64,000 nt of DNA from Azospirillaceae bacterium (lineage in GTDB: Bacteria; Pseudomonadota; Alphaproteobacteria; Azospirillales; Azospirillaceae), in contig JANQJV010000159.1 in assembly GCA_028281465.1 (NCBI GenBank), positions 1-64,000 of the forward strand, in the 5' to 3' direction. A model generated the notes under the pieces. That model had not been told where the DNA came from. It ran no database searches and saw nothing but the letters and a program-made list of their open reading frames with translations. This document shows positions 30,650-47,291 of this stretch, in pieces. How positions within the stretch are numbered: the first letter of the stretch is position 1; each line of letters starts with the position of its first letter. A program made the translations under genes and the position numbers.

Positions 30650-31126
30650 TCAGACGCCGTCCCCTTCAGTCAAGATATTCGCCGCGGGCGCGGCCCTTTC
30701 TCGCAACAAGCGCGTACTGCGTTCGAGACGCTGCGCCAGAACGCGCATCACCTGCACGGCGATTTCCGGGAATTCCTTGACCAGGCTGTAAAACAGGTCC
30801 TTGGAAATGCACAGCGTGTCGACATTGGTGAGCGCCCGTACCGAGGCCGTGCGCGGCACGTCGCACAACATGGCTACCTCGCCGATGAAATCATTCTTGC
30901 CCACCTTGGAGACAGTCATGGTGCCGTGGTTGGTCTGGATCAGCACATCGGCCTCACCGCTGACGATGATGTAGGCCGTGCTGCCCACCTCGCCCTCGCG
31001 CACGATGGTTTCACCGCTTTGGAACACCTGGCGTTCGCTGGCAAACGCCAGCAGCTTCAATCGTGATGGTTCGACCTTGGCAAACAGTGGTATCCGCTTG
31101 AGCAACTGCACTTCGTCGGCAAGCAT
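30650..31126 (-). CDS. Stand-alone cyclic-nucleotide-binding domain protein
   Basis: The 158-residue protein consists of one cyclic-nucleotide-binding (Crp-type) beta-roll, about residues 10-125, with the phosphate-binding cassette FIGEVAMLCDVPRTASVRAL keeping the GE pair and the arginine expected for cNMP binding. A C-terminal helix follows (RVLAQRLERSTRLLRER), but no helix-turn-helix is visible, so it is not an obvious transcription factor. It lies 39 bases after the unusual ABC gene and is probably cotranscribed with it, which suggests it senses a nucleotide for that system. The ligand is unknown. Confidence 0.82.
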   Translation of the reverse strand: MLADEVQLLKRIPLFAKVEPSRLKLLAFASERQVFQSGETIVREGEVGSTAYIIVSGEADVLIQTNHGTMTVSKVGKNDFIGEVAMLCDVPRTASVRALTNVDTLCISKDLFYSLVKEFPEIAVQVMRVLAQRLERSTRLLRERAAPAANILTEGDGV

Positions 31127-31165: not shown

Positions 31166-33817
31166 TTACTCATTGGTCAAGAGCGAGCGCAGCACCGAGT
31201 CGGGATCTTGCTGCAAGTCGGCGAACGACCCACTCTCCACGAGGTGGCCGTTCTTGAATACCAATACCAGATTGGCCATGCGGGCCAGACCCGGGCGGTG
31301 GAGCACCCAGATCAAGCCGCGGCCGGCCCGCTCTTCCAAGATCGCCGCATGCACCCGAGTCTGGCTCTGACCATCTAGCCCACTGGTGGCTTCGTTCAGC
31401 ACCATCAGGGCCGGTCGCTTTAAAAGGACACGAGCCAGGGCCGTCTTGGCGCGCTGCGCCGCCGACAGCCGCGAACCGGCCACGCCGACCTGCCAGTCCA
31501 AACCGACTTCGGTCAAGCAGGTGCGCAGTCCAAGATCGTCGACCAAACCGGCGATCATCTGACGCACCAGGCGGTTGGCCACCTGGGCCTGGCCGTGCGC
31601 CAGACGCCCAAACAGGATGTTGTCCTGGATCGAGGCGGCGGAGTTGTATTTGTCCTCATCGAACAACTCCACACTGCCGCGCAATTCGACCGGCAATTCG
31701 TCAGCGAAGACGCGGCGCGCCCGGAGCAAGCGGTCCTTGAACGGGTCATCGATCAGACCCAGCCGATGGCGGGTCGGAATCAGCTTGAACACCAGGCCCA
31801 TCAGCCGGCTCCGCTCCGCCTCGCCGAGTTGGTCCGGGCCGTCGCGCCCAGCGCGCTGCACGATGGTCCGGAACTCCGGCAAATCATCGGCATCGATGAA
31901 GCTGAATTGCTCGAAGAGTTCGTGGCCTGGCGGCAGATCGGCGAAGATTTCCACCATGGTCTCCGCCACCTGGCGGCCCGCGTCCAGAAAGCTCGACGTC
32001 AGTCCAGCCTTGTCAAGCACGCGCCGCACATAGGGGTGGTCGGACAGGGACTCCACAGCGAACGTCGTGCCGACCGGCGTGCCGAACAACAGATTCTCGG
32101 CCACCGTGGCATTGACATTGTAGTGGTCGCGGTCGAAGCGCTCGACCAGCGATCGCAGTGAGTCATGAGCCAGCGCCTCGCGCGCGGCATGGCGTGCTTC
32201 GAGAATGCCGTTGGCGATGTCCGGCCGCTGTGCCGGGTCGATGGTGCCATACAGGCCGAAGTCGTAGACGTCGTCCTCCAGATCGACCATGCGCAGGATC
32301 GTGAACAGACGAACCGCCAACGCCTCCGGTCCGTCGCACCCGGCGGCTTCGTAATCGATCCAGTCAGCGTCAACATCATGATCGGTGTTGCCCGCAAGCC
32401 GCGCCTCCTCCAGACGCTGGCGTTTGCGTGCCAGCACCTCGGGCACCGGCACCGCCGGGCGCAACGGACGGTGTTTAAGACCGTAGACCAAGTTGTCGCG
32501 CAACGTCCCCGAAAACAGATACGGGCTGGCGTTCGCGTAACCGATCTGGCGCCCGGTCAAGCTCTCCGGCAGATGCTGGACGTCACGGCCGTCGATGCGG
32601 ATGCTGCCCGATGATGGCACGGTCAGCCGGGCCAAGAGCGGCGCCAGATCTTCGGTCCCACCGCCCCCCGCATTGACGATGGCCGTCACCCCGGCGAGCG
32701 GGATGGTACAGCTCACGCCCTCCAGGATCGTGGTACCGCTCTCTTCCGTCAGGGTGACGTTGGTGAGCTGCATGGTCCCCGCAATCGCCACAGGATCGGC
32801 TGGAGATGCCGTCTGCAGCGACTCGTCCATCAGACCGGGCGGCTCGAACTGTTCGATCACTTGCTCGTATTTGATGCGCGCATCTTCTTTTTGTTGATAG
32901 TAAATCAGCAGCTCTCGCCATGGTCCGGCCAAATCTTTGTATGCAGCCAACACCGCCACTAGGGCACCAAACGAAAGCTGTCCGGAAATCACAAGATATC
33001 CACCGATGGAGTAGAAGAAAAACGGCGTCAATTGGTTGATGAAATTGTTGAGAAACTTGATGAAGAACTTGCGTCGGTAAATCTCGTAACGGATATCGTA
33101 AATATCGCCATACCGGTCAGCGATATCGGCAAGGTGCAGAGCCGACGTGTCGTGACTATGGATTTCTTGCACACCGGCAACGGTTTCGCCCAGTTTGTCG
33201 GAAATCTGCCGCATGGTGCGAACGCGCATCTTGCCGAGCTGGTTCACACGCCGTTGCAGCTTGGGAATGATATAGCCCTGCAGCGGATACAGTGCGATGG
33301 ACGCCAGGCCAAGGAATGGGTCCTGTAAGAAGATGAAGACGATATAGACGATCAACGTACCGCCCTGGAAGGCCGGCTGGGCGATGGCCTCGCCGATGAA
33401 ACCACCGAGTGGCTCCACCTCCGCCGTAATCATGGCGATAATCTCGCCGGAGGAGACCTTGCGGAAACGCGGCAGAGGAAAACGCAGAACTCGGGCGTAT
33501 AGTTCGTAGCGCAGGCGTCGCAGCATCCGCTCGCCGACCCGCCCCTTATAAGTATTGATGAAATATTTAAAGATACCGTTGATGACGACCATGGTCAGGA
33601 ACAAACCCGACAGCGCCATCAGATAGCCAATCTGTCCGACGTCCTGACCAAACAGTGTCGTCTCAGGATCGAAGTTGGATATCGCCTCGTTGATGATGAT
33701 TTTCGGCAGTTCGAGAGTGTAGTAGAGCACCGGAAACGAGGCAACCGTCACCAACAGCAGCAGAACCTGCTGCCGCGCACTGTGGCGCATGATGAAACGG
33801 TAAATGGTGGGGGCCAT
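31166..33817 (-). CDS. ABC exporter-like protein with a degenerate, expanded nucleotide-binding domain
   Basis: From the chosen start the product is 883 residues. Residues 4-325 form an ABC exporter transmembrane domain (ABC_membrane type). The C-terminal part aligns by eye with an ABC ATPase but lacks its key residues. The Walker A site reads NAGGGGTED (residues 382-390, no lysine). The Q-loop reads GYANASPYLFSGT, without glutamine. The signature is LSAAQ (784-788) and Walker B is LMVLNEATSGLD (804-815), with asparagine in place of aspartate. The glutamate and the H-loop histidine (H840) are kept. About 340 residues separate the Q-loop from the signature instead of about 75, and they contain three copies of a DN/EN-hydrophobic-x-x-G segment at about 434-446, 566-579 and 724-737. 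ATP hydrolysis is doubtful; its substrate is unknown. Confidence 0.75.
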   Translation of the reverse strand: MAPTIYRFIMRHSARQQVLLLLVTVASFPVLYYTLELPKIIINEAISNFDPETTLFGQDVGQIGYLMALSGLFLTMVVINGIFKYFINTYKGRVGERMLRRLRYELYARVLRFPLPRFRKVSSGEIIAMITAEVEPLGGFIGEAIAQPAFQGGTLIVYIVFIFLQDPFLGLASIALYPLQGYIIPKLQRRVNQLGKMRVRTMRQISDKLGETVAGVQEIHSHDTSALHLADIADRYGDIYDIRYEIYRRKFFIKFLNNFINQLTPFFFYSIGGYLVISGQLSFGALVAVLAAYKDLAGPWRELLIYYQQKEDARIKYEQVIEQFEPPGLMDESLQTASPADPVAIAGTMQLTNVTLTEESGTTILEGVSCTIPLAGVTAIVNAGGGGTEDLAPLLARLTVPSSGSIRIDGRDVQHLPESLTGRQIGYANASPYLFSGTLRDNLVYGLKHRPLRPAVPVPEVLARKRQRLEEARLAGNTDHDVDADWIDYEAAGCDGPEALAVRLFTILRMVDLEDDVYDFGLYGTIDPAQRPDIANGILEARHAAREALAHDSLRSLVERFDRDHYNVNATVAENLLFGTPVGTTFAVESLSDHPYVRRVLDKAGLTSSFLDAGRQVAETMVEIFADLPPGHELFEQFSFIDADDLPEFRTIVQRAGRDGPDQLGEAERSRLMGLVFKLIPTRHRLGLIDDPFKDRLLRARRVFADELPVELRGSVELFDEDKYNSAASIQDNILFGRLAHGQAQVANRLVRQMIAGLVDDLGLRTCLTEVGLDWQVGVAGSRLSAAQRAKTALARVLLKRPALMVLNEATSGLDGQSQTRVHAAILEERAGRGLIWVLHRPGLARMANLVLVFKNGHLVESGSFADLQQDPDSVLRSLLTNE
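31607..32518 (-). repeat. Three diverged in-frame repeats within the ABC gene
   Basis: Three protein-level copies lie on the minus strand at 32518-32480 (LFSGTLRDNLVYG), 32122-32081 (YNVNATVAENLLFG) and 31648-31607 (YNSAASIQDNILFG). Copies two and three are also preceded by a similar lead (FDRDHYN and FDEDKYN). Copies are spaced roughly 130 and 160 codons apart. They are similar in protein but not at nucleotide level, so any duplication is old. Confidence 0.7.
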
Positions 33818-34189: not shown

Positions 34190-35425
34190 ATGACCAGCCG
34201 GTCCGGCCACAACCGTGTCCTCATTTACAGCCACGACAGCTTCGGCCTGGGACATCTCCGGCGATGCCGCACGATCGCCCACGCGCTGGTCGACCAACAC
34301 CACGACCTGTCGGTGCTGATCCTGTCGGGATCGCCGATCATCGGCAGTTTCGAATTCCGCGCCCGGGTCGATTTCGTCCGCATTCCAGGCGTCATTAAGC
34401 TGCGCAACGGTGCTTACACGTCCTTGGCACTGCACATCGACATTGAAGAAACCCTGGCCATGCGGGCGTCGATCATCCGGCACACGGCCGATATCTTCGA
34501 TCCCGACCTGTTCATCGTCGACAAAGAACCGCTTGGTTTGCGCGGCGAGGTGTTGGAGACGCTGCAAATGCTTAAACAGCGCAACACGCCTCTGGTACTG
34601 GGGCTGCGCGACGTAATGGACGAACCGGCGCTGCTGGCACCGGAGTGGCAACGCAAAAACGTCGTGCCAGCCCTGGAGCAGCTCTACGACCAGCTTTGGG
34701 TCTACGGCCTGCCGCAAATCTGCGATCCGCTCGACGGAATCGCCGTGCCACACTCGGTACGCCGCAAAATGGTCTACACGGGCTATCTGCGCCGAGCCAT
34801 GCCGGTGTCGCCGCCCACAGGCCTGGACGCTCCAGAGGAGCCCTTCATCCTGGTCACCGCCGGCGGCGGCGGCGACGGCGAGGCTCTGATTGACTGGGTG
34901 CTGCGGGCCTACGAAAGTGACTCACGACTCCCGTTCCGGGCCCTTATCGTGTTTGGACCTTTTCTGGGCAGCGACCGGCAACGGGAGTTCCTGAGCCGTG
35001 CGGCCCTGCTGCCCAATGTCGACGCCACCACCTTCGAATTGCACTTCGAACACCTCATGAAGCGCGCCGTCGGCGTGGTCGGCATGGGTGGCTACAACAC
35101 GTTTTGCGAAATCCTGTCCTACGACAAACCTGCCCTGATCGTGCCGCGCCAGGCACCACGCCGGGAACAGCTCATCCGCGCCACCCGGGCCCGCGATCTG
35201 GGTTTGTGCAGCCTCCTGGTCGACGACGGCAACCGCAATGCCGCGGCCATGGCCACCGCCTTGCGGCAGTTGCCGCAGCAGAATCTTCCATCACAGATTA
35301 TCGTACCAGGATTGCTGGACGGCCTGGGCAACGTCAATCGGCTGGCTGGCCATTGGCTGTCGCAGACCCGCAACAACGGGCGACGCCTGTTTTCGTGGCT
35401 CGGTGGACGCCGCCACCGCGCATGA
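34190..35425 (+). CDS. Predicted glycosyltransferase, COG4671 type
   Basis: This 411-residue GT-B fold protein starts RVLIYSHDSFGLGHLRRCRTIAHAL, the hallmark of the COG4671 predicted glycosyltransferases related to the GT28/MurG group. A glycine-rich stretch (VTAGGGGDGEALIDW) and the C-terminal MGGYNTFCEILSYDKPALIVPR donor-binding region are visible. It is the first gene of a plus-strand glycan locus, and its stop overlaps the next start as ATGA. Donor and acceptor are unknown. Confidence 0.85.
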   Translation: MTSRSGHNRVLIYSHDSFGLGHLRRCRTIAHALVDQHHDLSVLILSGSPIIGSFEFRARVDFVRIPGVIKLRNGAYTSLALHIDIEETLAMRASIIRHTADIFDPDLFIVDKEPLGLRGEVLETLQMLKQRNTPLVLGLRDVMDEPALLAPEWQRKNVVPALEQLYDQLWVYGLPQICDPLDGIAVPHSVRRKMVYTGYLRRAMPVSPPTGLDAPEEPFILVTAGGGGDGEALIDWVLRAYESDSRLPFRALIVFGPFLGSDRQREFLSRAALLPNVDATTFELHFEHLMKRAVGVVGMGGYNTFCEILSYDKPALIVPRQAPRREQLIRATRARDLGLCSLLVDDGNRNAAAMATALRQLPQQNLPSQIIVPGLLDGLGNVNRLAGHWLSQTRNNGRRLFSWLGGRRHRA

Positions 35426-36699
35426 TGGAGCCGTTCCCCGCTAGGCTGGACGGCCGGGTGGCCATCGTCGTCAAGGGCTGGCCGCGGTTGTCAGAGACCT
35501 TCCTGGCCCAGGAAGTACTGGCCCTGGAGCAACGTGGACTGCGCCAGGTGTTGATCTCGCTGCGCCATCCGACTGACCGCACGGAACACGCGCTGACCCG
35601 CGCGGTGCGCGCGCCTGTTCTTTATCTGCCGGAGTATCTGCACCAGGAACCACTCCGTGTGCTGACCGGGCTGTACCGAGCCACCCGGCTGCCCGGCTGG
35701 CGGGCTGCCCGGGCCGCCTGGTGGGCCGATCTACGCCTCGATCCAACGCGCAACCGGACGCGCCGTTTCGGCCAAGCCTGCGTGCTCGCCAACGAACTGC
35801 CACCTGACGTGCGCTGGCTGCATAGCCACTTCCTGCACACGCCGGCCAGTGTCACCCGCTACGCGGCGCTATTGACCGGCCGGCCATGGAGCGTCTCCGC
35901 CCATGCCAAGGATATATGGACCACGCCGGCTTGGGAGAAACGGCGCAAACTGGCGGAGGCGGCTTGGGCCGTCACCTGCACGCGGCAGGGCTGGGTACAC
36001 CTGCGCGACCTAGCCCCCTGCCCGGATCGGGTTGGCTTGGTCTATCACGGCCTGGACATGGATCGCTTTCCGCCGCCGCCGCCGCGGCCACCGCGGGACG
36101 GCCGCAACCCGGCGGAGCCGGTGCGCCTCCTGTCGGTCGGCCGGCTGGTGGAAAAGAAGGGCTTCGACTTGCTCCTGGCTGCCCTGGCACGTCTCGATCC
36201 GGACCTGCATTGGCGATGGCGGCACGTCGGCACCGGACCAGAGCGCCGCCGGCTGCACCGCGAAGCCGACCGTCTCGGGTTGACCGACCGCATCACCTGG
36301 CTGGGCAGCCAGGCCCATGATACGGTGATTGCCGAATATGCTGCCGCTGACCTATTCATCCTACCCTGTCGCCGTGCCCGCGACGGTGACCAGGACGGAT
36401 TGCCCAATGTGCTGATGGAAGCCTTGGTCATGGGCGTGGCGGTGCTGTCCGCCGAGACCGCCGCAGTTCCGGAACTGATCGACTCCGGATGCCATGGCAT
36501 ACTGGTTCCACCAAACGATATCACTACCCTGACCACGGCGCTCACCAAGCTTTGCCGCGATCCGGCCGAACGCAGACGGTTAGCCATGGCCGGACGGCAG
36601 CGGGTCGTGACCGATTTCACGGCAACGCCCGGCATCGATGCGCTGATGGCCCGGTTCATGGCCGAGCTGGCGATCGAGCCGACCGTCGACGGGCGCTGA
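35422..36699 (+). CDS. Glycosyltransferase family 4 protein
   Basis: The roughly 425-residue GT4 enzyme has an N-terminal VAIVVKGWPRLSETFLAQEVLALEQRG, resembling colanic-acid-type transferases (WcaL/AmsK-like), and the GT4 core (LLSVGRLVEKKGFDLLLAAL). The acidic signature is in NVLMEALVMGVAVLSAETAAVPELI. The start at 35422 overlaps the previous stop. It probably adds a sugar to an extracellular polysaccharide repeat unit. Confidence 0.87.
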   Translation: MMEPFPARLDGRVAIVVKGWPRLSETFLAQEVLALEQRGLRQVLISLRHPTDRTEHALTRAVRAPVLYLPEYLHQEPLRVLTGLYRATRLPGWRAARAAWWADLRLDPTRNRTRRFGQACVLANELPPDVRWLHSHFLHTPASVTRYAALLTGRPWSVSAHAKDIWTTPAWEKRRKLAEAAWAVTCTRQGWVHLRDLAPCPDRVGLVYHGLDMDRFPPPPPRPPRDGRNPAEPVRLLSVGRLVEKKGFDLLLAALARLDPDLHWRWRHVGTGPERRRLHREADRLGLTDRITWLGSQAHDTVIAEYAAADLFILPCRRARDGDQDGLPNVLMEALVMGVAVLSAETAAVPELIDSGCHGILVPPNDITTLTTALTKLCRDPAERRRLAMAGRQRVVTDFTATPGIDALMARFMAELAIEPTVDGR

Positions 36700-36703
36700 G
36701 GTG

Positions 36704-37840
36704 ATGCGCATCGCCTTCTATGCACCGCTGAAGGCACCGACCCATCCGGTGCCATCCGGCGACCGCCGCATGGCCCGCATGCTGATGGCGGCCCTCGAAA
36801 TGGCCGGGCACGAGGTGTTCCTCGCCTGCCGGTTGCGCAGCTGGGACGATGGCCGCCGGTCGGGACGGCCAGAACGCCTCGCCTGCCTTGGCGACCGCAT
36901 GGCCGGACGGCTCACCGCCCGACTCGGCCGCAAACCACCAGACCTATGGTTCACCTATCACTTATATCACAAAGCACCGGACTATCTCGGCCCAGCGGTA
37001 TCCCGAGCCCTCGGCATCCCCTATGTGGTGGCCGAAGCATCGTTCGCGCCGAAACGGGCCGACGGCCCCTGGGCAACCGGACATCGCGCCGCCGAACGGG
37101 CGATCCGACAGGCCGATCGCATCTTCGTGCTCGCTTCGGTCGACGCCGACTGCCTGCGGCCGCTGGTGCGTGACCCGGCCATGCTGGTGCCGCTGCCGCC
37201 GTTTTTGGACACCCGGCCTTATGCGACCATCGCCGAGTCGCGGGCCACGACACGCTCCGCGCTGGCATCGCGTTGGCATCTGGATTCGGACCAACCTTGG
37301 ATGCTGACGGTGGGTATGATGCGGCCGGGCGACAAGGAACGGTCCTACCAAGTCCTGGCACAGGCGCTGAAGCGCGTGGCCAATCGGCCTTGGACCTTGC
37401 TGGTCGCTGGCGATGGTCCGCGCCGTCAGGCCGTGGAAGCCCTGTTCCAGTGCTTCGCACCCGAGCGTGTTCGGTTTCTGGGCGAACAGCGGACTCAGGC
37501 CCTGACGGGCTTGTATGCCAGTGCCGACATGATGGTCTGGCCCGCCATCAATGAAGCCTACGGCATGGCGCTGCTGGAAGCCCAAGCCGCCGGCGTGCCG
37601 GTGGTGGCCGGGTGCACCGGCGGCGTTCCCGATATTGTACGCGATCGCAGGACCGGCCTGCTGGCACCGCCGGGCGATGTGGACGGTCTGGCCGCAGCGG
37701 TGGCAGCGCTGCTTGACGATCCGGCCCGACGGCTGGCGTTCGCCAACCAAGCACGGCATAGTATGCACAACGAGCATGATATTATGGTGGCGGTGCAGCG
37801 CCTGCAAGCCGCACTGGTTGGATTGCGTACCGGCCACTGA
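36704..37840 (+). CDS. Glycosyltransferase family 4 protein
   Basis: The 378-residue GT4 enzyme begins MRIAFYAPLKAPTHPVPSGDRRMARMLMAAL. The C-terminal donor region has the family acidic motif in NEAYGMALLEAQAAGVPVVAG. It begins four bases after the previous stop, within the same plus-strand run. A GTG one codon upstream is an alternative start. The exact sugar is unknown. Confidence 0.86.
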   Translation: MRIAFYAPLKAPTHPVPSGDRRMARMLMAALEMAGHEVFLACRLRSWDDGRRSGRPERLACLGDRMAGRLTARLGRKPPDLWFTYHLYHKAPDYLGPAVSRALGIPYVVAEASFAPKRADGPWATGHRAAERAIRQADRIFVLASVDADCLRPLVRDPAMLVPLPPFLDTRPYATIAESRATTRSALASRWHLDSDQPWMLTVGMMRPGDKERSYQVLAQALKRVANRPWTLLVAGDGPRRQAVEALFQCFAPERVRFLGEQRTQALTGLYASADMMVWPAINEAYGMALLEAQAAGVPVVAGCTGGVPDIVRDRRTGLLAPPGDVDGLAAAVAALLDDPARRLAFANQARHSMHNEHDIMVAVQRLQAALVGLRTGH

Positions 37841-37897
37841 GGGTTCGGTCGGAGCGTCATTTCGGACAAGAGGCGGACAAGGGGCGTACAAGACGGT

Positions 37898-38473
37898 ATG
37901 ACCTACATTCTGGTGATTCGCCACGCGGTCACCGACTGGAACGCACAAGGCCGCATCCAGGGCCGTACGGACGTGCCACTTTCCGATGCCGGCCGGACAG
38001 CGGCGATGACCTGGAAACTGCCCGCCGGTGCCCACTCGATCCGCTGGTTCGCGAGCCCACTGCAGCGCACCATGGACACGGCTCGCGAGGTTGGCTTGTC
38101 GTTCGAGGCCGAACCACGGCTGGCCGAAATGGCGTGGGGCGAGTGGGAAGGCAAGACACTGAAGGAATTGCGCGACTCCGGTGCGCTGACACCGGCGATG
38201 GAAGCCTTGGGGCTGGATTTCCGACCCCCTGGAGGCGAAACGCCGCGCGAGGTACAACATCGTGTGCGACCGTGGTTGACCGAGGTGGCGCAATCGCGCA
38301 AGCCAGCCGGGGCCGTCACCCACCAGGGCGTTTTGCGCGCCATCTACGCGCTTGCCACAGGGTGGGACATGAAATCGAAACCACCGGTCAAGATGGTCGA
38401 CGCCTGTGCCCAATGCTTCATGCTCGACCCGGCGGGCACCCCACGCGCGGCCCTACTCAACATCAAACTGTGA
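37898..38473 (+). CDS. Histidine phosphatase (phosphoglycerate-mutase superfamily)
   Basis: The 191-residue protein has the RHG-type catalytic motif RHAVTDWN near the N-terminus (histidine nucleophile), with LQRTMDTAREV, an acidic LAEMAWGEWEGKTL and the second histidine in VTHQGVLRAI. It is cytoplasmic. Inside a glycan locus it may dephosphorylate a sugar phosphate, but the substrate is not predictable from sequence. Confidence 0.85.
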   Translation: MTYILVIRHAVTDWNAQGRIQGRTDVPLSDAGRTAAMTWKLPAGAHSIRWFASPLQRTMDTAREVGLSFEAEPRLAEMAWGEWEGKTLKELRDSGALTPAMEALGLDFRPPGGETPREVQHRVRPWLTEVAQSRKPAGAVTHQGVLRAIYALATGWDMKSKPPVKMVDACAQCFMLDPAGTPRAALLNIKL

Positions 38474-38482
38474 CGGCCCACC

Positions 38483-39667
38483 ATGCGATTGGTGTTCCAT
38501 GTCCAGCACCTGCTCGGCATCGGGCACCTGCGCCGCGCCGCCAGTCTGGCTGCCGGCCTGGCCCGACACGGCTTCGCGGTGACCGTGGCGTCGGGCGGCT
38601 TTCCCGTAGACGGCATTGGGTTCGGTTCGGCACGGGTGGTGCAGTTGCCACCGGTCCGGGCCGGCGATCCGGCGTTCTCGACCCATGTCACCACCGGCGG
38701 ACGACCAATCGATGCCGATTGGGAAGCCCGCCGGCTCGCCTCCCTGCGGTCGATCCTCGACGACGTCGATCCCGATGCCGTATTGATCGAAAGCTATCCG
38801 TTCGGCCGCCGGCGATTTCGTTTCGAATACGATTTGATATTTGAATGGCGGAAATCCCGCCGCCCTCCGGCCCTGCTCGCCACCTCGGTGCGCGATGTCC
38901 TGGTGACGAAACCGAATCCGGAGCGACATCGCGAGACGGTCGACAGGATCCTTCATCACGTCGACAGGGTGCTGGTCCACGGTGATCCGGCCTTGATCCG
39001 GTTCGAAGAAACCTTTCCTCTCACGGATCGAATATCGGACAGGCTTATTTATACCGGATACGTAACAGATAGTGAAACCCCCGTCACGGATGGTGTCGGG
39101 GATGGTGACGGCAACGGCGAGGTGATCGTTTCCGCCGGTGGCGGCGCGGTCGGCGCTGCCCTTCTCCACACCGCGTTGGCGGCCCGTCCCCTGAGCGCCG
39201 CCGCCGGCCTGACTTGGCGCATCCTGTGCGGTCCCGATCTGGCAGCCGAGCATGTCGCCGCCCTGCGCAGCGGCGCCGACCCTGGCGTCTTGGTCGAAGC
39301 GAACCGGCCCGACTTCCCCGCCTTGCTCCGGCGCTGCGCCGCCTCAATCAGCCAAGCAGGCTATAATACGGTGCTCGATCTGTTGGCGGCCGGTTGCCCG
39401 GCCGTGTTGGTGCCCTTTTCCACCGGACAGGAGACCGAACAAGCGGTGCGGGCGCAGCGGCTGGCAGAACGCGGGGCGGTCACCGTGGTCACCGAAGCCA
39501 ACTTGACGCCGGACCATCTGGCCCGTGCCATCGACGCTGCCCGCGCTGCTGGACGCCCAATCGTGCCGCCCATTCGACGCGACGGCGCAGCGGCAACGGC
39601 CACCATCCTGGCCACCGCACTGACAGGCCGAGCCGGTCAAAAATCTGGCGCAGCCGGGAACACTTAA
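38483..39667 (+). CDS. Second COG4671-type predicted glycosyltransferase
   Basis: The 394-residue protein begins MRLVFHVQHLLGIGHLRRAASLAAGLARHG, sharing the GHLRR loop with the protein at 34190. A C-terminal SQAGYNTVLDLLAAGCPAVLVPF segment matches the GT28-like donor-binding region. The two proteins share only the family motifs by eye and are diverged paralogues. It starts nine bases after the phosphatase gene. Confidence 0.85.
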   Translation: MRLVFHVQHLLGIGHLRRAASLAAGLARHGFAVTVASGGFPVDGIGFGSARVVQLPPVRAGDPAFSTHVTTGGRPIDADWEARRLASLRSILDDVDPDAVLIESYPFGRRRFRFEYDLIFEWRKSRRPPALLATSVRDVLVTKPNPERHRETVDRILHHVDRVLVHGDPALIRFEETFPLTDRISDRLIYTGYVTDSETPVTDGVGDGDGNGEVIVSAGGGAVGAALLHTALAARPLSAAAGLTWRILCGPDLAAEHVAALRSGADPGVLVEANRPDFPALLRRCAASISQAGYNTVLDLLAAGCPAVLVPFSTGQETEQAVRAQRLAERGAVTVVTEANLTPDHLARAIDAARAAGRPIVPPIRRDGAAATATILATALTGRAGQKSGAAGNT

Positions 39668-39700
39668 GCCATTCTGAAACATCCCCATGCTAACGATCCA

Positions 39701-40546
39701 ATGATAGTCACCATGTCCGGTCCCCTGCCCATGTCAACACCCATGACCGAACCGGCCGCCGGACGCGCGGCGGTAAGCGAAGAGTCGGCCGGTGCCTGGC
39801 GATCTTTAACGTATGAACTGGACTCCTGGGCCACGGCCGGCCAGCCGGCAACGTTCTGGTGGCGCGACGACGATGCGGTGGACGTGACACCGGCGCTGCA
39901 CCGGTTGCGGGCATTGTCGACCGAGACCGGTGTGCCGGTGGCCATCAGCGTGGTCCCCATGCATGCGCAGGAGGCGCTGGTCGCTTTCGTCGACGCGTGG
40001 CCGTCCGCCTGTGTGTTGCAACACGGTTACGACCACGATAACCATGCCCCCGAAGGAGCAAAGAAAACCGAACTGGCGGCCGGCCGGCCACTCGGGGCCC
40101 TTCTGGCCGATGTCGAGCGCGGCCGTGAAGCCCTGCATGCCCTGTTCGGCGACAAGGCGCTGCCCGTGCTGGTTCCACCGTGGAACCGCATCTCCTCGGC
40201 CCTGGTCGCCGCACTGCCGAAACTGGGCATGCATGGCCTGTCGGCATTCAAGGGGTTGAAGGTCGCACCGCGGCCCGTGGTCGAGGTCAACACCCACGTT
40301 GATGTCATCAATTGGCGTGGGCGAGTGTTCGTCGGTGAAAGGGTGGCGCTGGCGACCGCGGTGGACCATCTGCGGGCCCGCCGGCTCGGCTCCGAAGATC
40401 GGACCGAACCGACCGGTCTGCTCTCCCACCATCTGGTGATGGACGAAGCGGCCTGGCACTTCGTCGCCACCTTCCTGGCCGTCACAAAGGCACACCCGGC
40501 CGCACGCTGGCTCGACCCCCGTACTGTGTTCAAACCCGCGCCATGA
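39701..40546 (+). CDS. Polysaccharide deacetylase family protein
   Basis: The roughly 281-residue protein has a NodB-like fold, with metal-binding residues in FWWRDDDAVD (paired aspartates) and HGYDHDNH (histidines) and a downstream PPWNR loop. It would remove N- or O-acetyl groups from a glycan. No signal peptide is seen, so it may act in the cytoplasm on a lipid-linked intermediate, which is inference. Several in-frame ATGs (39701, 39713, 39731) leave the start uncertain. It overlaps the next gene by four bases. Confidence 0.82.
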   Translation: MIVTMSGPLPMSTPMTEPAAGRAAVSEESAGAWRSLTYELDSWATAGQPATFWWRDDDAVDVTPALHRLRALSTETGVPVAISVVPMHAQEALVAFVDAWPSACVLQHGYDHDNHAPEGAKKTELAAGRPLGALLADVERGREALHALFGDKALPVLVPPWNRISSALVAALPKLGMHGLSAFKGLKVAPRPVVEVNTHVDVINWRGRVFVGERVALATAVDHLRARRLGSEDRTEPTGLLSHHLVMDEAAWHFVATFLAVTKAHPAARWLDPRTVFKPAP

Positions 40547-41106
40547 CCGACACCATCCTCCGTTACCCGATCAACACGCTCACGGCCGACTATGTCCGAG
40601 CAGCCTCCGGTCTCGCGTTGACCGCAGCCCCTTTGCTGCTGATCGAGACCTCCGGCTGGATCGGCGTCCTTCTCGGTAGCTGCGCCATCCTGTTCGGCGT
40701 TTTCCTGGTGGCGACCTGGCGCCGGCATATGACCACGCTGCATGTCGACGACACCCGTGTCACCGCCCGTGGGCCGCTCGGCCGAAGCATCGCGTGGGCC
40801 GACCTGACCCATCTCAAGCTGGCGTATTACTCCACGCGGCGGGATCGCCGGGACGGCTGGATGGAGCTGACGCTCAAGGCATCCGACGCATCTCTGAAGG
40901 TTAATTCGAACTTGCAATGTTTTGATGACGTCGTTAGCCGGGCGACCCGGGCGGCAGAGCGCAACGGCGTCACCCTGAACGCCGCGACTTTGGACAACCT
41001 CGCTGCCCTGGGTGTCTGCGTCGACGGCCTCCAAGATGACCGCGCACCCCAGACTGGCGATCCGACGGACCGTCCCGGCGGCAGCACGACCGGAGCCGAA
41101 GGGTGA
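40543..41106 (+). CDS. Membrane protein with PH-like domain
   Basis: The 187-residue protein has two hydrophobic segments at about residues 20-60, then a small beta-rich domain containing TTLHVDDTRVTARGPLGRSIAWADLTHLKL, similar in character to bacterial PH-like domains. A C-terminal tail rich in Asp, Gly and Pro follows. It has no recognised family name. It starts inside the deacetylase stop (ATGA) and ends the glycan locus, so it probably belongs to the same unit. Confidence 0.6.
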   Translation: MTDTILRYPINTLTADYVRAASGLALTAAPLLLIETSGWIGVLLGSCAILFGVFLVATWRRHMTTLHVDDTRVTARGPLGRSIAWADLTHLKLAYYSTRRDRRDGWMELTLKASDASLKVNSNLQCFDDVVSRATRAAERNGVTLNAATLDNLAALGVCVDGLQDDRAPQTGDPTDRPGGSTTGAEG

Positions 41107-41245
41107 GGCACACCATCACCCGAGCAACGCCCCGGCACGGGCACCGGCGCACGGTTGACAAGGCGGGCACAGGTCTGGTCTCTGCCGGGACAGTGGCCAC
41201 CATGACATGGCATGGGACTGGGGATCGGGCCGGGAGTCGGAACGA

Positions 41246-43129
41246 ATGACTGATCTCTTGCGGGTCGAGAACCTGAAGGTCGAATTCCACGCTCCCGAAG
41301 GCGTGATCCCGGCTGTGCGCGATGTTTCGTTTGCCGTCCAGCCCGGCCGAACCCTGGCACTGGTCGGCGAGTCCGGCTCCGGCAAGACGGTGGTTTCGCA
41401 GACCATCATGGGCATCTTGCCGCGCGCGGCGCGTGTTGCTGGCGGCCGGATTCTATTCCGTGATCCGGAAAAGCCGGACACCGTGGTGGACCTTGCGCGC
41501 CTACCGCCAACCGGAGCGGCCATGCGTGCCATCCGTGGCGGCCGCATCTCGATCATTTTCCAGGAACCGATGACGTCACTGTCGCCGCTGCACACCGTCG
41601 GCGACCAGATCACCGAGGCCCTTGTGCTCCACCGCCCGGTCGACCGGTCCCAAGCTCTGGAATTGTGCCAAGAGATGTTGGCACTGGTGGATTTTCCCGA
41701 CCCGACGCACGCGCCTGACCGGTATCCGTTCGAATTGTCCGGGGGATTGCGGCAGCGCGCCATGATCGCCATGGCGCTGGTGTGCCATCCTTGCCTGCTG
41801 ATCGCCGACGAACCAACGACGGCACTGGACGTGACCATTCAAGCGCAGATCCTCAAACTGCTGCACGACCTTCAAGCCGAACTGGGTATGGCGGTCCTGA
41901 TCATCACCCACGATTTGGGCGTGGTCGCCAATCTGGCTGAGGAGGTCGTCGTCCTGTACCGCGGCGAGGTCATGGAAGCGGGACCGCTGGACACCATCTT
42001 CGCGCAACCGCGCCACCCCTATCTCAAGGCTCTGCTGCACGCGGTGCCGCGCTTCCACATGACGCCGGGCGAGAAGCTGGTGCCGATCCGCGAGATCAAG
42101 GGCGACGGCGGGCCGTTGCTGCGCCAGACCAAGGAGCCGTGGCCGGACGGCGCCGATGCGGTCGGCCCGCTCCTGCGCGTCGAAGGCGTTTCGAAGCGCT
42201 TCGGCGTGCGCAAAGGCGGCTGGCTGCGCGGTCGCAGCGCCGGCATGCTCGCGGTCGACGATGTCAGCTTCGACGTCAAGCGGGGTGAATGCCTGGGGTT
42301 GGTCGGGGAATCCGGCTGTGGCAAGACGACGCTCAGCAAGATTTTGATGCGTGCGCTCACACCCGATGCCGGCTCGGTCAGCTTCAACGACCGTGGCCGG
42401 CTGGTCGACGTGCTGGGGCTGGTCGGCCGTGACCTGATCGGCTTCCGGCGGCGTCTGCAGTTCATGTTCCAGGACCCGTTCGGCTCGCTGAACCCGCGCA
42501 TGACCGTGTTCGACGTCATCAGCGAACCGCTGGTCATCCACGGCATCGGCGACAGTGACTACCGCCGCTCACTGGTCAAGGAGCTGATGGCCCTGGTCGG
42601 CCTCGATGTGCGCCACTTGCAGCGCTATCCACACAGTTTTTCCGGTGGCCAACGCCAGCGCATCGGCATCGCGCGCGCTCTGGCCCTGCGGCCGGACATG
42701 CTGATCTGCGATGAGCCGGTGTCCGCCCTGGACGTGTCGATCCAGGCGCAGATTCTGAACCTACTGAAAGATCTCAAAGATCGACTTGGCCTGACCTATC
42801 TGTTCATCTCTCACAACTTGGCCGTCGTCGACTACATCGCCGACCGCATCATGGTGATGTGCCGCGGCCGCATGGTGGAAATCGCCCCGCGCGAAACGCT
42901 GTTTCGCACCCCGGTTCACCCCTACACCCAGGCCCTCCTGGCCGCAGTGCCGGAACCTGATCCGCGCTACCCGCTCAACTTCAAGGCACTGCAGGAAGGC
43001 CGTGCCTCGGAACCGACGGCTTGGCCCACCCCGTTCACCATCGACGACCGATCGCACCCGCGGCTGATCGATCTTGGTGGTGGCCATTGGGTACGGGCAA
43101 CCACCAATCCTTGGGAGATGGCCGCATGA
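41246..43129 (+). CDS. Peptide-type ABC transporter ATP-binding protein (two nucleotide-binding domains)
   Basis: The 627-residue protein is a fusion of two ATPase domains of the oligopeptide/dipeptide class (YejF/GsiA layout). The first domain has GESGSGKT and LSGGLRQR; the second has GESGCGKTT and FSGGQRQRIGIAR. Both Walker B regions (LLIADEPTTALD and MLICDEPVSALD) are intact. Start at 41246 is preceded by GGGAG about ten bases upstream. It heads a four-gene importer unit and overlaps the binding-protein gene by four bases. Confidence 0.93.
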   Translation: MTDLLRVENLKVEFHAPEGVIPAVRDVSFAVQPGRTLALVGESGSGKTVVSQTIMGILPRAARVAGGRILFRDPEKPDTVVDLARLPPTGAAMRAIRGGRISIIFQEPMTSLSPLHTVGDQITEALVLHRPVDRSQALELCQEMLALVDFPDPTHAPDRYPFELSGGLRQRAMIAMALVCHPCLLIADEPTTALDVTIQAQILKLLHDLQAELGMAVLIITHDLGVVANLAEEVVVLYRGEVMEAGPLDTIFAQPRHPYLKALLHAVPRFHMTPGEKLVPIREIKGDGGPLLRQTKEPWPDGADAVGPLLRVEGVSKRFGVRKGGWLRGRSAGMLAVDDVSFDVKRGECLGLVGESGCGKTTLSKILMRALTPDAGSVSFNDRGRLVDVLGLVGRDLIGFRRRLQFMFQDPFGSLNPRMTVFDVISEPLVIHGIGDSDYRRSLVKELMALVGLDVRHLQRYPHSFSGGQRQRIGIARALALRPDMLICDEPVSALDVSIQAQILNLLKDLKDRLGLTYLFISHNLAVVDYIADRIMVMCRGRMVEIAPRETLFRTPVHPYTQALLAAVPEPDPRYPLNFKALQEGRASEPTAWPTPFTIDDRSHPRLIDLGGGHWVRATTNPWEMAA

Positions 43130-45048
43130 TCCGCCCCGCCCTGTTGTCCGCGCTGCCCGTTGTCCTGGTGTCGGCGACCGTGCTGCCGGGGGTGTCGCCA
43201 CCGGCAACCGCCCAGCCGGTTCCGATCGAACCGCCGTCGCTTGAAGCGGCCGTTGCCGCCGGCAGCCTGCCGCCGGTGGCCGAGCGTCTGCCGGTCGAAC
43301 CGGTGGTGGTCGCCATGGACCGGCCGTACCAGAGCGTCGGCCGGCACGGCGGCGATTTGCGTGTGCTCATGCGCCGGGCCCGGGATACCCGAGTGATCTA
43401 TGTCTACACCTACGCCCGGCTGGTTGCCATTACACCTGAGCTGGAGTTGGAGCCGGACCTGTTGGCCGAGGTCGAGGTCGAGGAGGGCCGCCGCTTCACC
43501 TTGCGCCTGCGGCCCGGGCACCGCTGGTCGGACGGCCACCCGTTCACCGCGGAGGACTTCCGTTACTGGTGGGAAGACAAGGCAAACAATCCGACGCTAT
43601 CCCCGTTCGGTCCGCCCGCCGAGTATTTGCTCGACGGGCAGCCGCCCGCGGTGGAGATCGTCGACGCGCTGACCGTTCGCTATACCTGGGATAGGCCCAA
43701 CCCCTATTTCCTGCCTCGGCTGGCCGGCGCCCGGCCGACCGAAATCTACCTGCCGGCGCATTACTTGAAACAGTTCCATGGCACCCATGCCGATCCTGAA
43801 GCCCTAGCAGAACGAGTCGAAGCGGCCGGTCAACAGGGGTGGCCACAATTGCACAACCGGCGCGACGACATGAACCGGTTCGACAACCCCGACATGCCCA
43901 CGCTGCAGCCATGGAACAACACCACCAGGGCGCCCTCGGAACGTTTCGTCTTCGAACGGAACCCATATTATCATCGGATCGACGCGGAGGGACGTCAGCT
44001 CCCCTATATCGACCGCATCATCATGAACATCGCCGATTCCAAGATCATCCCGGCCAAGACGGGTGCCGGCGAATCCGACTTGCAGGCCCGCTACATCCGC
44101 TTCGACAACTACACCTTCCTCAAGGAAGCGGAATCCCGGCAGGATTTCCAGGTGCGTCTCTGGCGTACCGGGACCGGCGCTCAGATTGCGCTCTATCCAA
44201 ATCTAAATGTTACGGATCCGCAATGGCATCAATTGGTTCGTGATGTCCGTTTTCGCCGAGCGTTGTCCTTGGGTGTCGACCGGCATGAGATCAATCAGGT
44301 CATCTATTACGGCCTCGCCCTGGAATCGAACAACACGGTCCTACCCCAGTCGCCGCTGTTCGATCCGCGTCTGCAGTCCGCCTGGACCGACTTCGACCCG
44401 GACCGCGCCAATGCCCTACTGGACGAAATCGGCCTGACCGAACGGGACAGCGGCGGCATTCGGCTGCTGCCGGACGGACGGCCGCTGGAGATCGTGGTCG
44501 AAACAGCGGGGGAGAGCACCGAAGAGGTCGACGTGCTGCAGTTGATCAAGGACAGTTGGGCCCGGATTGGTGTCGCCCTGTTCACCAAACCGTCGCAGCT
44601 CGAGGTGTTCCGCAACCGCATCTATGCCGGCGAAACAGTCATGGCGGTGGCCAAGGGCGTCGACAACGGCATTCCGACACCAGCCATGGCACCGACCGAG
44701 TTCGTGCCGGTGGAACAGGTGCGCTATCAGTGGCCGAAATGGGGACAGTTTTACCAGACCAAAGGGGGCGCTGGCGAAGCCCCCGACATGCCGGCCGGCC
44801 AGAAGCTGATGGCTCTGCTGGAGGCCTGGGAAAATGCGACCGAGTCCGGCAGCCGCGCCAAAGCCTGGGGCGAGATTCTGTCGATGCACGCCGAACAGCA
44901 ATTCACCATCGGCATCGTCAACGGCGTGCCGCAGCCGGTTGTGGTCAACACGGCCCTACGCAACGTGCCGGTTGATGGTCTCTACAACTACGATCCTGGA
45001 GCGCATTTCGGCGTGTATCGTCCTGACACCTTCTGGTTCGACCGGTGA
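43126..45048 (+). CDS. ABC transporter substrate-binding protein, family 5
   Basis: This 640-residue exported binding protein has a signal peptide (LLSALPVVLVSATVLPGVSPPATAQ) and an SBP_bac_5 domain (for example LRPGHRWSDGHPFTAEDFRYWWED). It is longer than most family members (about 500-550). The start at 43126 overlaps the ATPase gene as ATGA. The substrate is likely a peptide or related compound, but the sequence does not say which. Confidence 0.9.
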   Translation: MIRPALLSALPVVLVSATVLPGVSPPATAQPVPIEPPSLEAAVAAGSLPPVAERLPVEPVVVAMDRPYQSVGRHGGDLRVLMRRARDTRVIYVYTYARLVAITPELELEPDLLAEVEVEEGRRFTLRLRPGHRWSDGHPFTAEDFRYWWEDKANNPTLSPFGPPAEYLLDGQPPAVEIVDALTVRYTWDRPNPYFLPRLAGARPTEIYLPAHYLKQFHGTHADPEALAERVEAAGQQGWPQLHNRRDDMNRFDNPDMPTLQPWNNTTRAPSERFVFERNPYYHRIDAEGRQLPYIDRIIMNIADSKIIPAKTGAGESDLQARYIRFDNYTFLKEAESRQDFQVRLWRTGTGAQIALYPNLNVTDPQWHQLVRDVRFRRALSLGVDRHEINQVIYYGLALESNNTVLPQSPLFDPRLQSAWTDFDPDRANALLDEIGLTERDSGGIRLLPDGRPLEIVVETAGESTEEVDVLQLIKDSWARIGVALFTKPSQLEVFRNRIYAGETVMAVAKGVDNGIPTPAMAPTEFVPVEQVRYQWPKWGQFYQTKGGAGEAPDMPAGQKLMALLEAWENATESGSRAKAWGEILSMHAEQQFTIGIVNGVPQPVVVNTALRNVPVDGLYNYDPGAHFGVYRPDTFWFDR

Positions 45049-45087
45049 TTGTTTCGGCTCCGCACTAATCTTGGACGGGTGACGGTT

Positions 45088-46086
45088 ATGTTCGGCTACA
45101 TCGTTCGTCGGATCATGATCATGATCCCGACCCTGCTGGCGATCAGCATCGTCACCTTCATCATCATCCAACTGCCACCGGGCGATTACCTGACCACGCT
45201 CGTATCGGAGCTGCAGAGCCGCGGCGAAAGTGTCGACCAGAGCCGCATCGAGTTCCTGCGCCAGACCTATGGCCTCGACAGGCCGCTCATCGAGCAGTAT
45301 TTCCTATGGCTCGGGGGCATGTTGACGGGCGACTTCGGCTATTCGTTTGAGTATGGCCTGCCGGTCAGCGATGTGGTGGGCGACCGGCTCTTGCTGACGA
45401 CGATCGTATCCTTCGCCACGATCATTTTCATCTGGATCGTGTCGTTCCTCATCGGCATTTATTCCGCCACTCATCAATACAGCGCCGGGGATTACGCGCT
45501 GAGCTTCCTTGGCTTTCTCGGCCTGGCGACGCCCAATTTCCTGCTCGCTCTGGTGTTGCTCTACTTCGCCAACGTCACCTTCGGCACCTCCATCGGTGGT
45601 TTGATGGATCCGGCTTACGTCGACCAGCCCTGGAGCTGGGGCAAGGTCTTGTCGGTGCTGGAGCATCTGTGGATTCCAGTGGTAGTGATCGGCACCTCCG
45701 GAACGGCGGCCATGATCCGCCGACTGCGTGCCAATCTTTTGGACGAACTGGACAAACAGTATGTCGTGACCGCACGAGCCAAGGGCTTGCCACCTGGGCG
45801 TGCCCTGTTCAAGTACCCGTTGCGGATGGCACTCAATCCGTTCATCGCCGACATCGGCAACCTGCTGCCACAGGTGGTTTCTGGGGCAGCGGTGGTTTCG
45901 GTGGTGCTGTCCCTTCCAACGACGGGCCCCATGCTGCTGGAGGCATTGCGCAGCCAAGACATGTATCTGGCCGGTTCGTTCTTGATGTTCCTCGCCATCC
46001 TGACCGTAATTGGCATGTTTTTGTCAGACCTGGCGCTGGCCGTGCTGGATCCGCGCATCCGCCTTGAAGGGAAGGCCACGAAATGA
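45088..46086 (+). CDS. ABC transporter permease (peptide class, first subunit)
   Basis: This 332-residue inner-membrane permease begins MFGYIVRRIMIMIPTLLAISIVTFIIIQLPPGD, the standard start of DppB/OppB/YejB-type subunits, and has about six membrane helices. The EAA-like coupling loop is present near YVVTARAKGLPPGRALFKYPLRMAL. ATG at 45088 is chosen. It sits 39 bases after the binding-protein gene. Confidence 0.92.
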   Translation: MFGYIVRRIMIMIPTLLAISIVTFIIIQLPPGDYLTTLVSELQSRGESVDQSRIEFLRQTYGLDRPLIEQYFLWLGGMLTGDFGYSFEYGLPVSDVVGDRLLLTTIVSFATIIFIWIVSFLIGIYSATHQYSAGDYALSFLGFLGLATPNFLLALVLLYFANVTFGTSIGGLMDPAYVDQPWSWGKVLSVLEHLWIPVVVIGTSGTAAMIRRLRANLLDELDKQYVVTARAKGLPPGRALFKYPLRMALNPFIADIGNLLPQVVSGAAVVSVVLSLPTTGPMLLEALRSQDMYLAGSFLMFLAILTVIGMFLSDLALAVLDPRIRLEGKATK

Positions 46087-47291
46087 GCGCCCCACCGACT
46101 GGGTCTGGCGACCCATCGTCACCGCTCGAGTACGACACTCATGGCCGCATGGTGCATTACGTCTCGACGGCGCCGTTCGATCCCTACGCCACCGAGCAAC
46201 TGACGGCGAAACAAGAACGCTACTATCTCGCCTCACAGTGGCAGCTCATGTGGTGGAAGCTGCGGCGGCACCGGCTGGCCGTTGTGTCGGGAGCGATCCT
46301 TCTCGTGCTCTACGTCAGCATCCTGTTCAGCGAAGTGCTGGCGCCCTATGGCCTGGACAGCCGCGATTCCGACCACATTTACGCGCCGCCGCAGGCACTG
46401 CACCTGTTCCATGACGGTAGCTTCGTCGGACTTTTCGTTTACGGCTATGACTACCGGCTGAACATGACCACCTTGAAGCGGGAGTACACCGTCAACACCG
46501 ACAAGATCTATCCGGTGCAGTTCTTCTGCCGCGGCGACAGCTACCGCTTTTGGGGCCTGTTCAAGGCCGATTTCCACCTGTTCTGCTCAAGCCCGGGCGG
46601 CACGCTGTATCTTCTGGGCACCGACCGGCTTGGCCGGGACATGCTGAGCCGCATCATCTACGGCACGCGTATCTCGCTCACAGTCGGCCTGATCGGCATC
46701 ACCATCAGCTTCGCGCTCGGCATCTTCTTTGGTGGCCTGGCGGGCTACTACGGTGGTTGGGTCGACAGCCTGGTTCAAAGGCTGATCGAGATGCTGCGCT
46801 CGTTCCCGGAGCTGCCGTTGTGGATGGCCCTATCGGCGGCATTGCCGGTCACCTGGAGTCCGATCCTGATTTATTTCGGAATTACAATCATCCTTGGATT
46901 GCTCGACTGGACTGGGCTGGCACGGGCCGTGCGCTCCAAGCTGCTGGCCTTACGCGAGGAGGATTTCTGTACGGCGGCCCAGCTCATGGGCGCCTCGCCG
47001 CGCCGCGTGATCGCGCGGCACCTGCTGCCGAGTTTCATGAGCCATCTGATCGCCTCGGCGACCTTGTCGATCCCGGCCATGATCCTGGGGGAGACCGCCT
47101 TGTCCTTCCTGGGTCTCGGCCTTCGACCGCCGATCACGAGTTGGGGCGTGCTGTTGAACGAGGCTCAGAACATCAATGTGGTCGCGCTGTATCCCTGGCT
47201 GATGCTTCCGGTCGTGCCGGTGATCGTGGTGGTGCTGGCGTTCAATTTCCTAGGCGACGGTCTGCGCGACGCGGCCGACCCGTATCGGTGA
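46083..47291 (+). CDS. ABC transporter permease (peptide class, second subunit)
   Basis: The 402-residue DppC/YejE-type permease has an N-terminal cytoplasmic lead, the first helix near residues 63-83, then a periplasmic region of about 100 residues and five more helices. The coupling loop is AAQLMGASPRRVIARHLLPSFMSHL. The overall length and long first periplasmic loop resemble YejE. It overlaps the first permease by four bases and ends the importer unit. Confidence 0.92.
   Translation: MSAPPTGSGDPSSPLEYDTHGRMVHYVSTAPFDPYATEQLTAKQERYYLASQWQLMWWKLRRHRLAVVSGAILLVLYVSILFSEVLAPYGLDSRDSDHIYAPPQALHLFHDGSFVGLFVYGYDYRLNMTTLKREYTVNTDKIYPVQFFCRGDSYRFWGLFKADFHLFCSSPGGTLYLLGTDRLGRDMLSRIIYGTRISLTVGLIGITISFALGIFFGGLAGYYGGWVDSLVQRLIEMLRSFPELPLWMALSAALPVTWSPILIYFGITIILGLLDWTGLARAVRSKLLALREEDFCTAAQLMGASPRRVIARHLLPSFMSHLIASATLSIPAMILGETALSFLGLGLRPPITSWGVLLNEAQNINVVALYPWLMLPVVPVIVVVLAFNFLGDGLRDAADPYR

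Follow-up and report, generated by a model that had tools for sequence, protein, structure and literature searches.

The ATPase is what generally defines an ABC protein, and the locus examined here raises the question of what an ABC exporter fold might be doing in a protein whose ATPase motifs have been replaced. The gene lies in a 64,000-nucleotide stretch of DNA from an Azospirillaceae bacterium (contig JANQJV010000159.1, hereafter the window), and a preliminary description, made from the sequence alone, had drawn attention to its altered motifs and to the enlarged spacing within its nucleotide-binding domain (NBD). We refer to the protein as a pseudo-ABC and to its degenerate ATPase domain as a pseudo-NBD; the transmembrane domain is abbreviated as TMD and cyclic nucleotide as cNMP.

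The ABC gene and its departures from working exporters

The relevant features, all on the minus strand, are as follows.

31166..33817, minus strand: degenerate ABC-exporter-like protein of 883 aa (TMD plus pseudo-NBD with an insertion)
32828..33817, minus strand: transmembrane domain, residues 1-330, six long helices (PF00664, E 4e-22)
32648..32674, minus strand: degenerate Walker A, NAGGGGTED, residues 382-390
32471..32548, minus strand: motif copy 1, the Q-loop strand plus DNLVYG, residues 424-449, without the Q-loop Gln
31670..32482, minus strand: insertion between Q-loop and signature, residues ~446-716, ~270 aa
32072..32149, minus strand: motif copy 2, VERFDRDHYNVNATVAENLLFG, residues 557-582, inside the insertion
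31592..31675, minus strand: motif copy 3, VELFDEDKYNSAASIQDNILFG, which spans residues 715-742 and runs on into the helical subdomain
31454..31468, minus strand: signature position, LSAAQ, residues 784-788
31391..31408, minus strand: degenerate Walker B, LMVLNE, residues 804-809

The frame is open for 883 codons from the ATG at 33817 to 31166 with no internal stop, and alignment of its relatives places the conserved Met1 of the family at this ATG. A longer 990-aa frame with a TTG start was considered and rejected as the true gene, its start lying upstream of that Met1. GC content by codon position is 0.65/0.40/0.76, and neighbouring genes are similar. The TMD is followed by a match to the ABC ATPase fold (PF00005, E 3e-10), and an AF2 model of the full protein is confident (mean pLDDT 88.9, pTM 0.84), with values in the TMD mostly 80-96 apart from two weak stretches. 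Structure prediction had been proposed as a check on the gene, and the PDB entries nearest to the full model are ABC exporters; whole-model TM-scores against PDB chains range from low to moderate, since both the dimer and the insertion differ, and they are used for fold class only. The model clearly has the fold of an ABC exporter. The order of six-helix TMD and NBD, like the fold itself, is shared with the type IV exporters MsbA, PglK, P-glycoprotein and TmrAB, from which the pseudo-ABC differs in having no catalytic residues, in having Q-loop and signature separated by ~300 additional residues, and in an inverted pattern of conservation described below.

The motifs NAGGGGTED, ANA, LSAAQ and LMVLNE are all found where the preliminary description had placed them. 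The window protein is without the Walker A Lys, the Q-loop Gln (the position, at residue 427, reads YANAS) and the Walker B Asp. The distance from Q-loop to signature, earlier put at about 340 residues and four times normal, is indeed abnormal, but the excess is larger than was stated, with 354 residues in the window protein; a canonical exporter encoded by this genome has 56, and working exporters generally have ~55-75.

Much of the additional length is insertion, and copies 2 and 3 within and beside it repeat the segment normally found after the Q-loop. Comparison by hhalign relates copy 2 to copy 3 with a probability of 97.9 (E 3e-13, 64 columns) and copy 1 to copy 3 with a probability of 90%. 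Because the Q-loop-side motif recurs there in these two copies, the alignments suggest that the insertion grew by internal duplication. It is present throughout the family and, when predicted alone, gives a confident helical fold (pLDDT 90.7); a scan of 73 members found no Pfam family in it, and searches of the PDB returned no fold match reaching E 0.001 and no sequence-profile relative.

Conservation across the family

A single scan of genome contigs yielded 279 relatives; 80 of these were retained for analysis. Plasmid records contain 263 more, mostly from Rhizobium and Sinorhizobium at ~40% identity. The family is present in 131 of 385 genomes in an even sample of the alphaproteobacteria; a search of phages for it gave no match. 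Motifs were counted in 79 aligned relatives that are 38-62% identical. None of the 79 has the full catalytic set of Walker A, Q-loop Gln, Walker B Asp and Glu, and H-loop His. Four of them have a Walker A of the form GxxxxGK[S/T], nine the Walker B Asp and 50 the Walker B Glu, with the Q-loop Gln retained in 20 and the H-loop His in 32, and the spacing from Q-loop to signature is 346-387 in all 79. The search for homologues that had been advised therefore finds both the motif loss and the insertion to be conserved.

The Walker A lysine is a more complicated matter. That it is missing is true of the window protein, as the preliminary description had it, but a basic residue is common at this position among relatives (77/91, with K in 59 and R in 18), the residue that follows being Asp or Glu in most of them instead of Ser or Thr. 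The members from S. meliloti, R. johnstonii and R. etli have no Walker A Lys and read FNQP or FNRP at Walker B; in S. meliloti 2011 the homologous gene is located on pSymB, at ~841.7-844.4 kb. Since many relatives keep Lys or Arg, some could retain residual nucleotide binding, and ATP may still bind, without being hydrolysed, in part of the family.

The distribution of sequence variation points in the same direction as the motif counts. The TMD is the most conserved part of the family, with a mean column entropy of 1.14 bits in the family alignment. When equal-sized samples are used, the pseudo-ABC family has entropies of 1.07 bits for the TMD, 1.70 for the NBD, 1.64 for Walker A and 1.46 for Walker B, whereas a control set of 30 canonical exporter orthologues gives 1.52, 0.90, 0.43 and 0.16 bits respectively. 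Conservation is inverted relative to the control, the TMD being conserved and the ATP site drifting, and the Walker A and Walker B columns vary as much as the remaining NBD. What the pseudo-NBD conserves are the repeated E/D-N-x-L-F-G motifs (1.16-1.23 bits), and its invariant residues are W486, R542, E574, N575, G579, R701, N733 and G737. Judged from these alignments, the exporter-fold TMD is under strong selection and the pseudo-NBD keeps its fold and not its catalytic residues; the ATP site, by the same evidence, lacks the selective constraint that working exporters show. The earlier conclusion that the window protein cannot be an ordinary ATPase is supported by the absence of a full catalytic set and by the inverted conservation, and the argument that a clean frame of 883 codons speaks against decay agrees with the family-wide conservation.

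The cyclic-nucleotide-binding partner and its gene neighbourhood

Three features went unremarked in the preliminary description: the motif repeats of the insertion, a cNMP-binding partner gene and a cluster of glycan genes. The partner and the flanking genes are arranged as follows.

30650..31126, minus strand: cyclic-nucleotide-binding protein of 158 aa, the conserved partner gene (PF00027, E 8e-20)
30839..30889, minus strand: phosphate-binding cassette of this protein, FIGEVAMLCDVPRTASV
34190..41106, plus strand: divergent glycosyltransferase cluster, kept beside the ABC gene in 41-68 of 80 loci, depending on the gene
Genes of the cluster, plus strand: GT28-like (34190), GT4 (35425), GT4 (36701), phosphatase-like (37898), GT28-like (38483), deacetylase-like (39701), membrane protein (40543)
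41207..47291, plus strand: peptide-type ABC importer genes (ATPase, SBP_bac_5 and two permeases), the same set as found beside the pair in rhizobia

In a Pfam scan PF00027 is the sole family match in the 158-aa protein, and no helix-turn-helix or other DNA-binding domain was found. The domain match and the Glu and Arg of the cassette together predict cNMP binding, and the cassette residues are kept among relatives (Arg in 85/85, Gly in 84/85 and Glu in 80/85). PF00027 and the canonical cassette are shared with Crp/Fnr-type and other cNMP-binding proteins; unlike Crp/Fnr, the partner has no detected helix-turn-helix, and its conserved companion is a membrane protein. Its S. meliloti homologue (L103:16809-17273), annotated as 'Crp/Fnr family transcriptional regulator', aligns as a bare domain of the same length as the window's 158-aa protein. 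For the pair as a whole, the annotation 'ABC transporter ATP-binding protein' and the occasional 'Crp/Fnr family transcriptional regulator' are probably misleading.

A cNMP relative lies directly downstream of the ABC gene on the same strand in 71 of the 80 genome loci and is fused to it in three, giving an adjacent or fused gene in 74/80; the 71 include L036 and L078 (68 and 59 bp downstream), whose overlapping frames were missed by a script count of 69. Three gammaproteobacterial loci have the cNMP gene ~4 kb upstream of the ABC gene, and in the other three of the 80 no nearby cNMP gene was found. Further ABC-cNMP fusions occur in several other clades, among them L019, L020, L022, L151, Azospirillum ramasamyi (L117) and Ruegeria (L116). 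Three fused proteins (L084, L092 and L097) have in addition a GGDEF-like domain with no GGDEF motif, so that each seems to contain two catalytically inactive domains.

The window genome contains a second family copy (53-60% identity) in two pieces, C121 (30922-34731, L002) and C283 (40293-42215, L003), with no cNMP gene in the 1.5 kb downstream. The contig ends share an exact 99-base overlap, so the two pieces represent one gene split by assembly.

Shadow frames swamped an overall clustering of the flanking frames; directed searches, used instead, show the GT28-like gene beside the ABC gene in 68 of 80 loci, the two GT4 genes in 66 and 61, the phosphatase-like gene in 58 and the deacetylase-like gene in 48. 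In S. meliloti, R. johnstonii and R. etli the pair is accompanied by glycosyltransferases, the peptide-type importer and an adenylate/guanylate cyclase, and in Phyllobacterium a cyclase and a glycosyltransferase are near it. Class III cyclases are present in the flanks of 10/80 loci, where 1.8 would be expected at the density of the window genome (P 2e-5), or 4.3 if a higher density like that of rhizobia is assumed (P 0.013); the enrichment is modest if the background density is high. The window genome itself has 11 class III cyclase genes, none of them on the window's contig. A cyclase is in the same gene run as the ABC and cNMP genes in L150; this protein (L150:2358-4085) has a 2Fe-2S ferredoxin domain before the catalytic domain (PF00111, PF00211).

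Some genomes have the TMD by itself. One (G343) encodes a TMD-only protein of 345 aa, its gene divergent from the GT28-like and GT4 genes of the same cluster, and no cNMP-binding relative was found in that genome, the assembly of which is 91% complete; the pseudo-NBD and the cNMP protein are thus missing together. Two others (G128 and G397) have TMD-only paralogues alongside a full-length copy, and a more distant TMD-only group of ~330-410 aa is common in many genomes. The tree groups the TMD-only rows (84/95), but their branches are long and the number of NBD losses is consequently unsure. These TMD-only versions, with the linkage and the fusions, suggest that the TMD may do something alone and that the pseudo-NBD and cNMP protein could constitute a removable control unit. 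We also note that stand-alone exporter TMD proteins of ~330-410 aa with no NBD (L206, L209, L210, L211) are found in varied alphaproteobacterial settings, that another stand-alone copy (L208) has an internal stop, and that two TMD-only paralogues with an N-terminal extension (L148:4368-5594 and L149:4540-5781) adjoin metal-type genes for MerR-like regulators, cation efflux and a multicopper oxidase.

A candidate mechanism and its alternatives

The evidence tips somewhat in favour of a two-component membrane device in which the pseudo-ABC is controlled by cNMP, takes part in surface-glycan metabolism and does not hydrolyse ATP. Two copies of the pseudo-ABC would form an exporter-like dimer, in which the cNMP-binding subunit docks on the pseudo-NBD and its insertion. 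Where an ordinary exporter uses an ATP cycle to shift the conformation of its TMD, this device would use the binding of cAMP or cGMP. The adjacent glycosyltransferases would make a glycan or glycolipid precursor, and the shift would control how that precursor passes through the membrane or is handled there. Contact of the cNMP protein with the pseudo-NBD, and cNMP regulation of a membrane activity, are both suggested by linkage, fusion and joint absence; linkage to glycan genes makes a glycan the candidate substrate and does not prove it. A more specific version, which we put forward tentatively, is that the ATP motor has been converted to a docking or regulatory platform, that cNMP bound to the subunit gates a channel or passive flippase for surface-glycan assembly, and that some lineages keep the bare TMD. 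The gated, non-pumping membrane device that the preliminary description had offered as one option would fit well with the linked cNMP partner and with the occurrence of the TMD without an NBD.

There are partial precedents. CFTR and SUR are ABC proteins that act as a channel or regulator, so that there too an ABC-exporter fold serves something besides ordinary pumping; each, however, retains ATP binding and hydrolysis at one site or more, and neither is known to use a cNMP-binding subunit of the pseudo-ABC partner's kind. If the cNMP-controlled device is real, the ABC exporter fold can work without its motor, and the pair would provide an output for some of the many class III cyclases in rhizobia and azospirilla. 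The family is found in about one third of the sampled alphaproteobacterial genomes, and its hosts include S. meliloti and relatives of R. leguminosarum.

The main rival is a regulatory scaffold or receptor whose TMD transports nothing, and which senses a membrane or periplasmic signal together with cNMP and controls the glycan enzymes or the peptide-type importer. Linkage to the glycosyltransferases, and to the importer in the window and in rhizobia, is as expected of such a protein, and the GGDEF-like domain without its active-site motif in three members is a signalling architecture; strong conservation over the whole TMD nonetheless suggests that the membrane pathway itself matters, and we consider this role rather unlikely, if a serious contender. 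Improbable in our estimation is a regulated pump that binds ATP and either hydrolyses it slowly or uses binding only. The basic residue at the Walker A position of 77/91 relatives and the Walker B Glu of 50/79 are what recommend it, but they must be set against the acidic residue in place of Ser/Thr, a Walker B Asp in just 9/79, the complete set in 0/79, the loss of the Walker A Lys in the aligned rhizobial members as well, and an ATP site without the selection seen in working exporters.

Heterodimers with one degenerate site, such as TAP, TM287/288, TmrAB and MsRv1273c/72c (PMC7756269, PMC12038006), have also lost catalytic residues in an NBD, and the preliminary description had proposed that the protein pairs with an active ABC half. 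In such an arrangement the pseudo-ABC would supply the degenerate site and an exporter subunit encoded elsewhere the active one. Exporters of this type are well known (PMC7756269) and several canonical exporters are encoded in the window genome, but the proposal finds no support in the flanks of the 80 loci, none of which contains another TMD+NBD exporter, and in S. meliloti and R. johnstonii there is likewise none within 14 kb. Known degenerate sites show fewer departures, changes in the signature and of the Walker B Glu to Asp being the commonest (PMC7756269), and the window protein goes beyond these in also having no Walker A Lys or Walker B Asp. The active half of such exporters is usually a neighbouring gene. 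With no linked active partner gene and departures exceeding those of usual degenerate sites, and with stand-alone TMD versions in existence, we regard a heterodimer half as very improbable. Gene decay, a frameshift or an assembly fault, for which the unusual motifs alone might speak, is ruled out to a negligible residual chance by the clean frame, the normal codon-position bias, the 279 relatives and the 131/385 genomes, and the recurrence of the spacing and motif loss across relatives shows that this is not local decay.

We found no description of the family, of the ABC and cNMP pair or of the R. leguminosarum and R. etli tags in the openly licensed literature, an absence that is not proof. 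The one hit there, pRL110056, is named as an O-antigen enzyme required for root colonisation (PMC11103875); by a count of tags it probably corresponds to the nucleotide sugar dehydrogenase that lies at the cluster's edge and not to the ABC gene.
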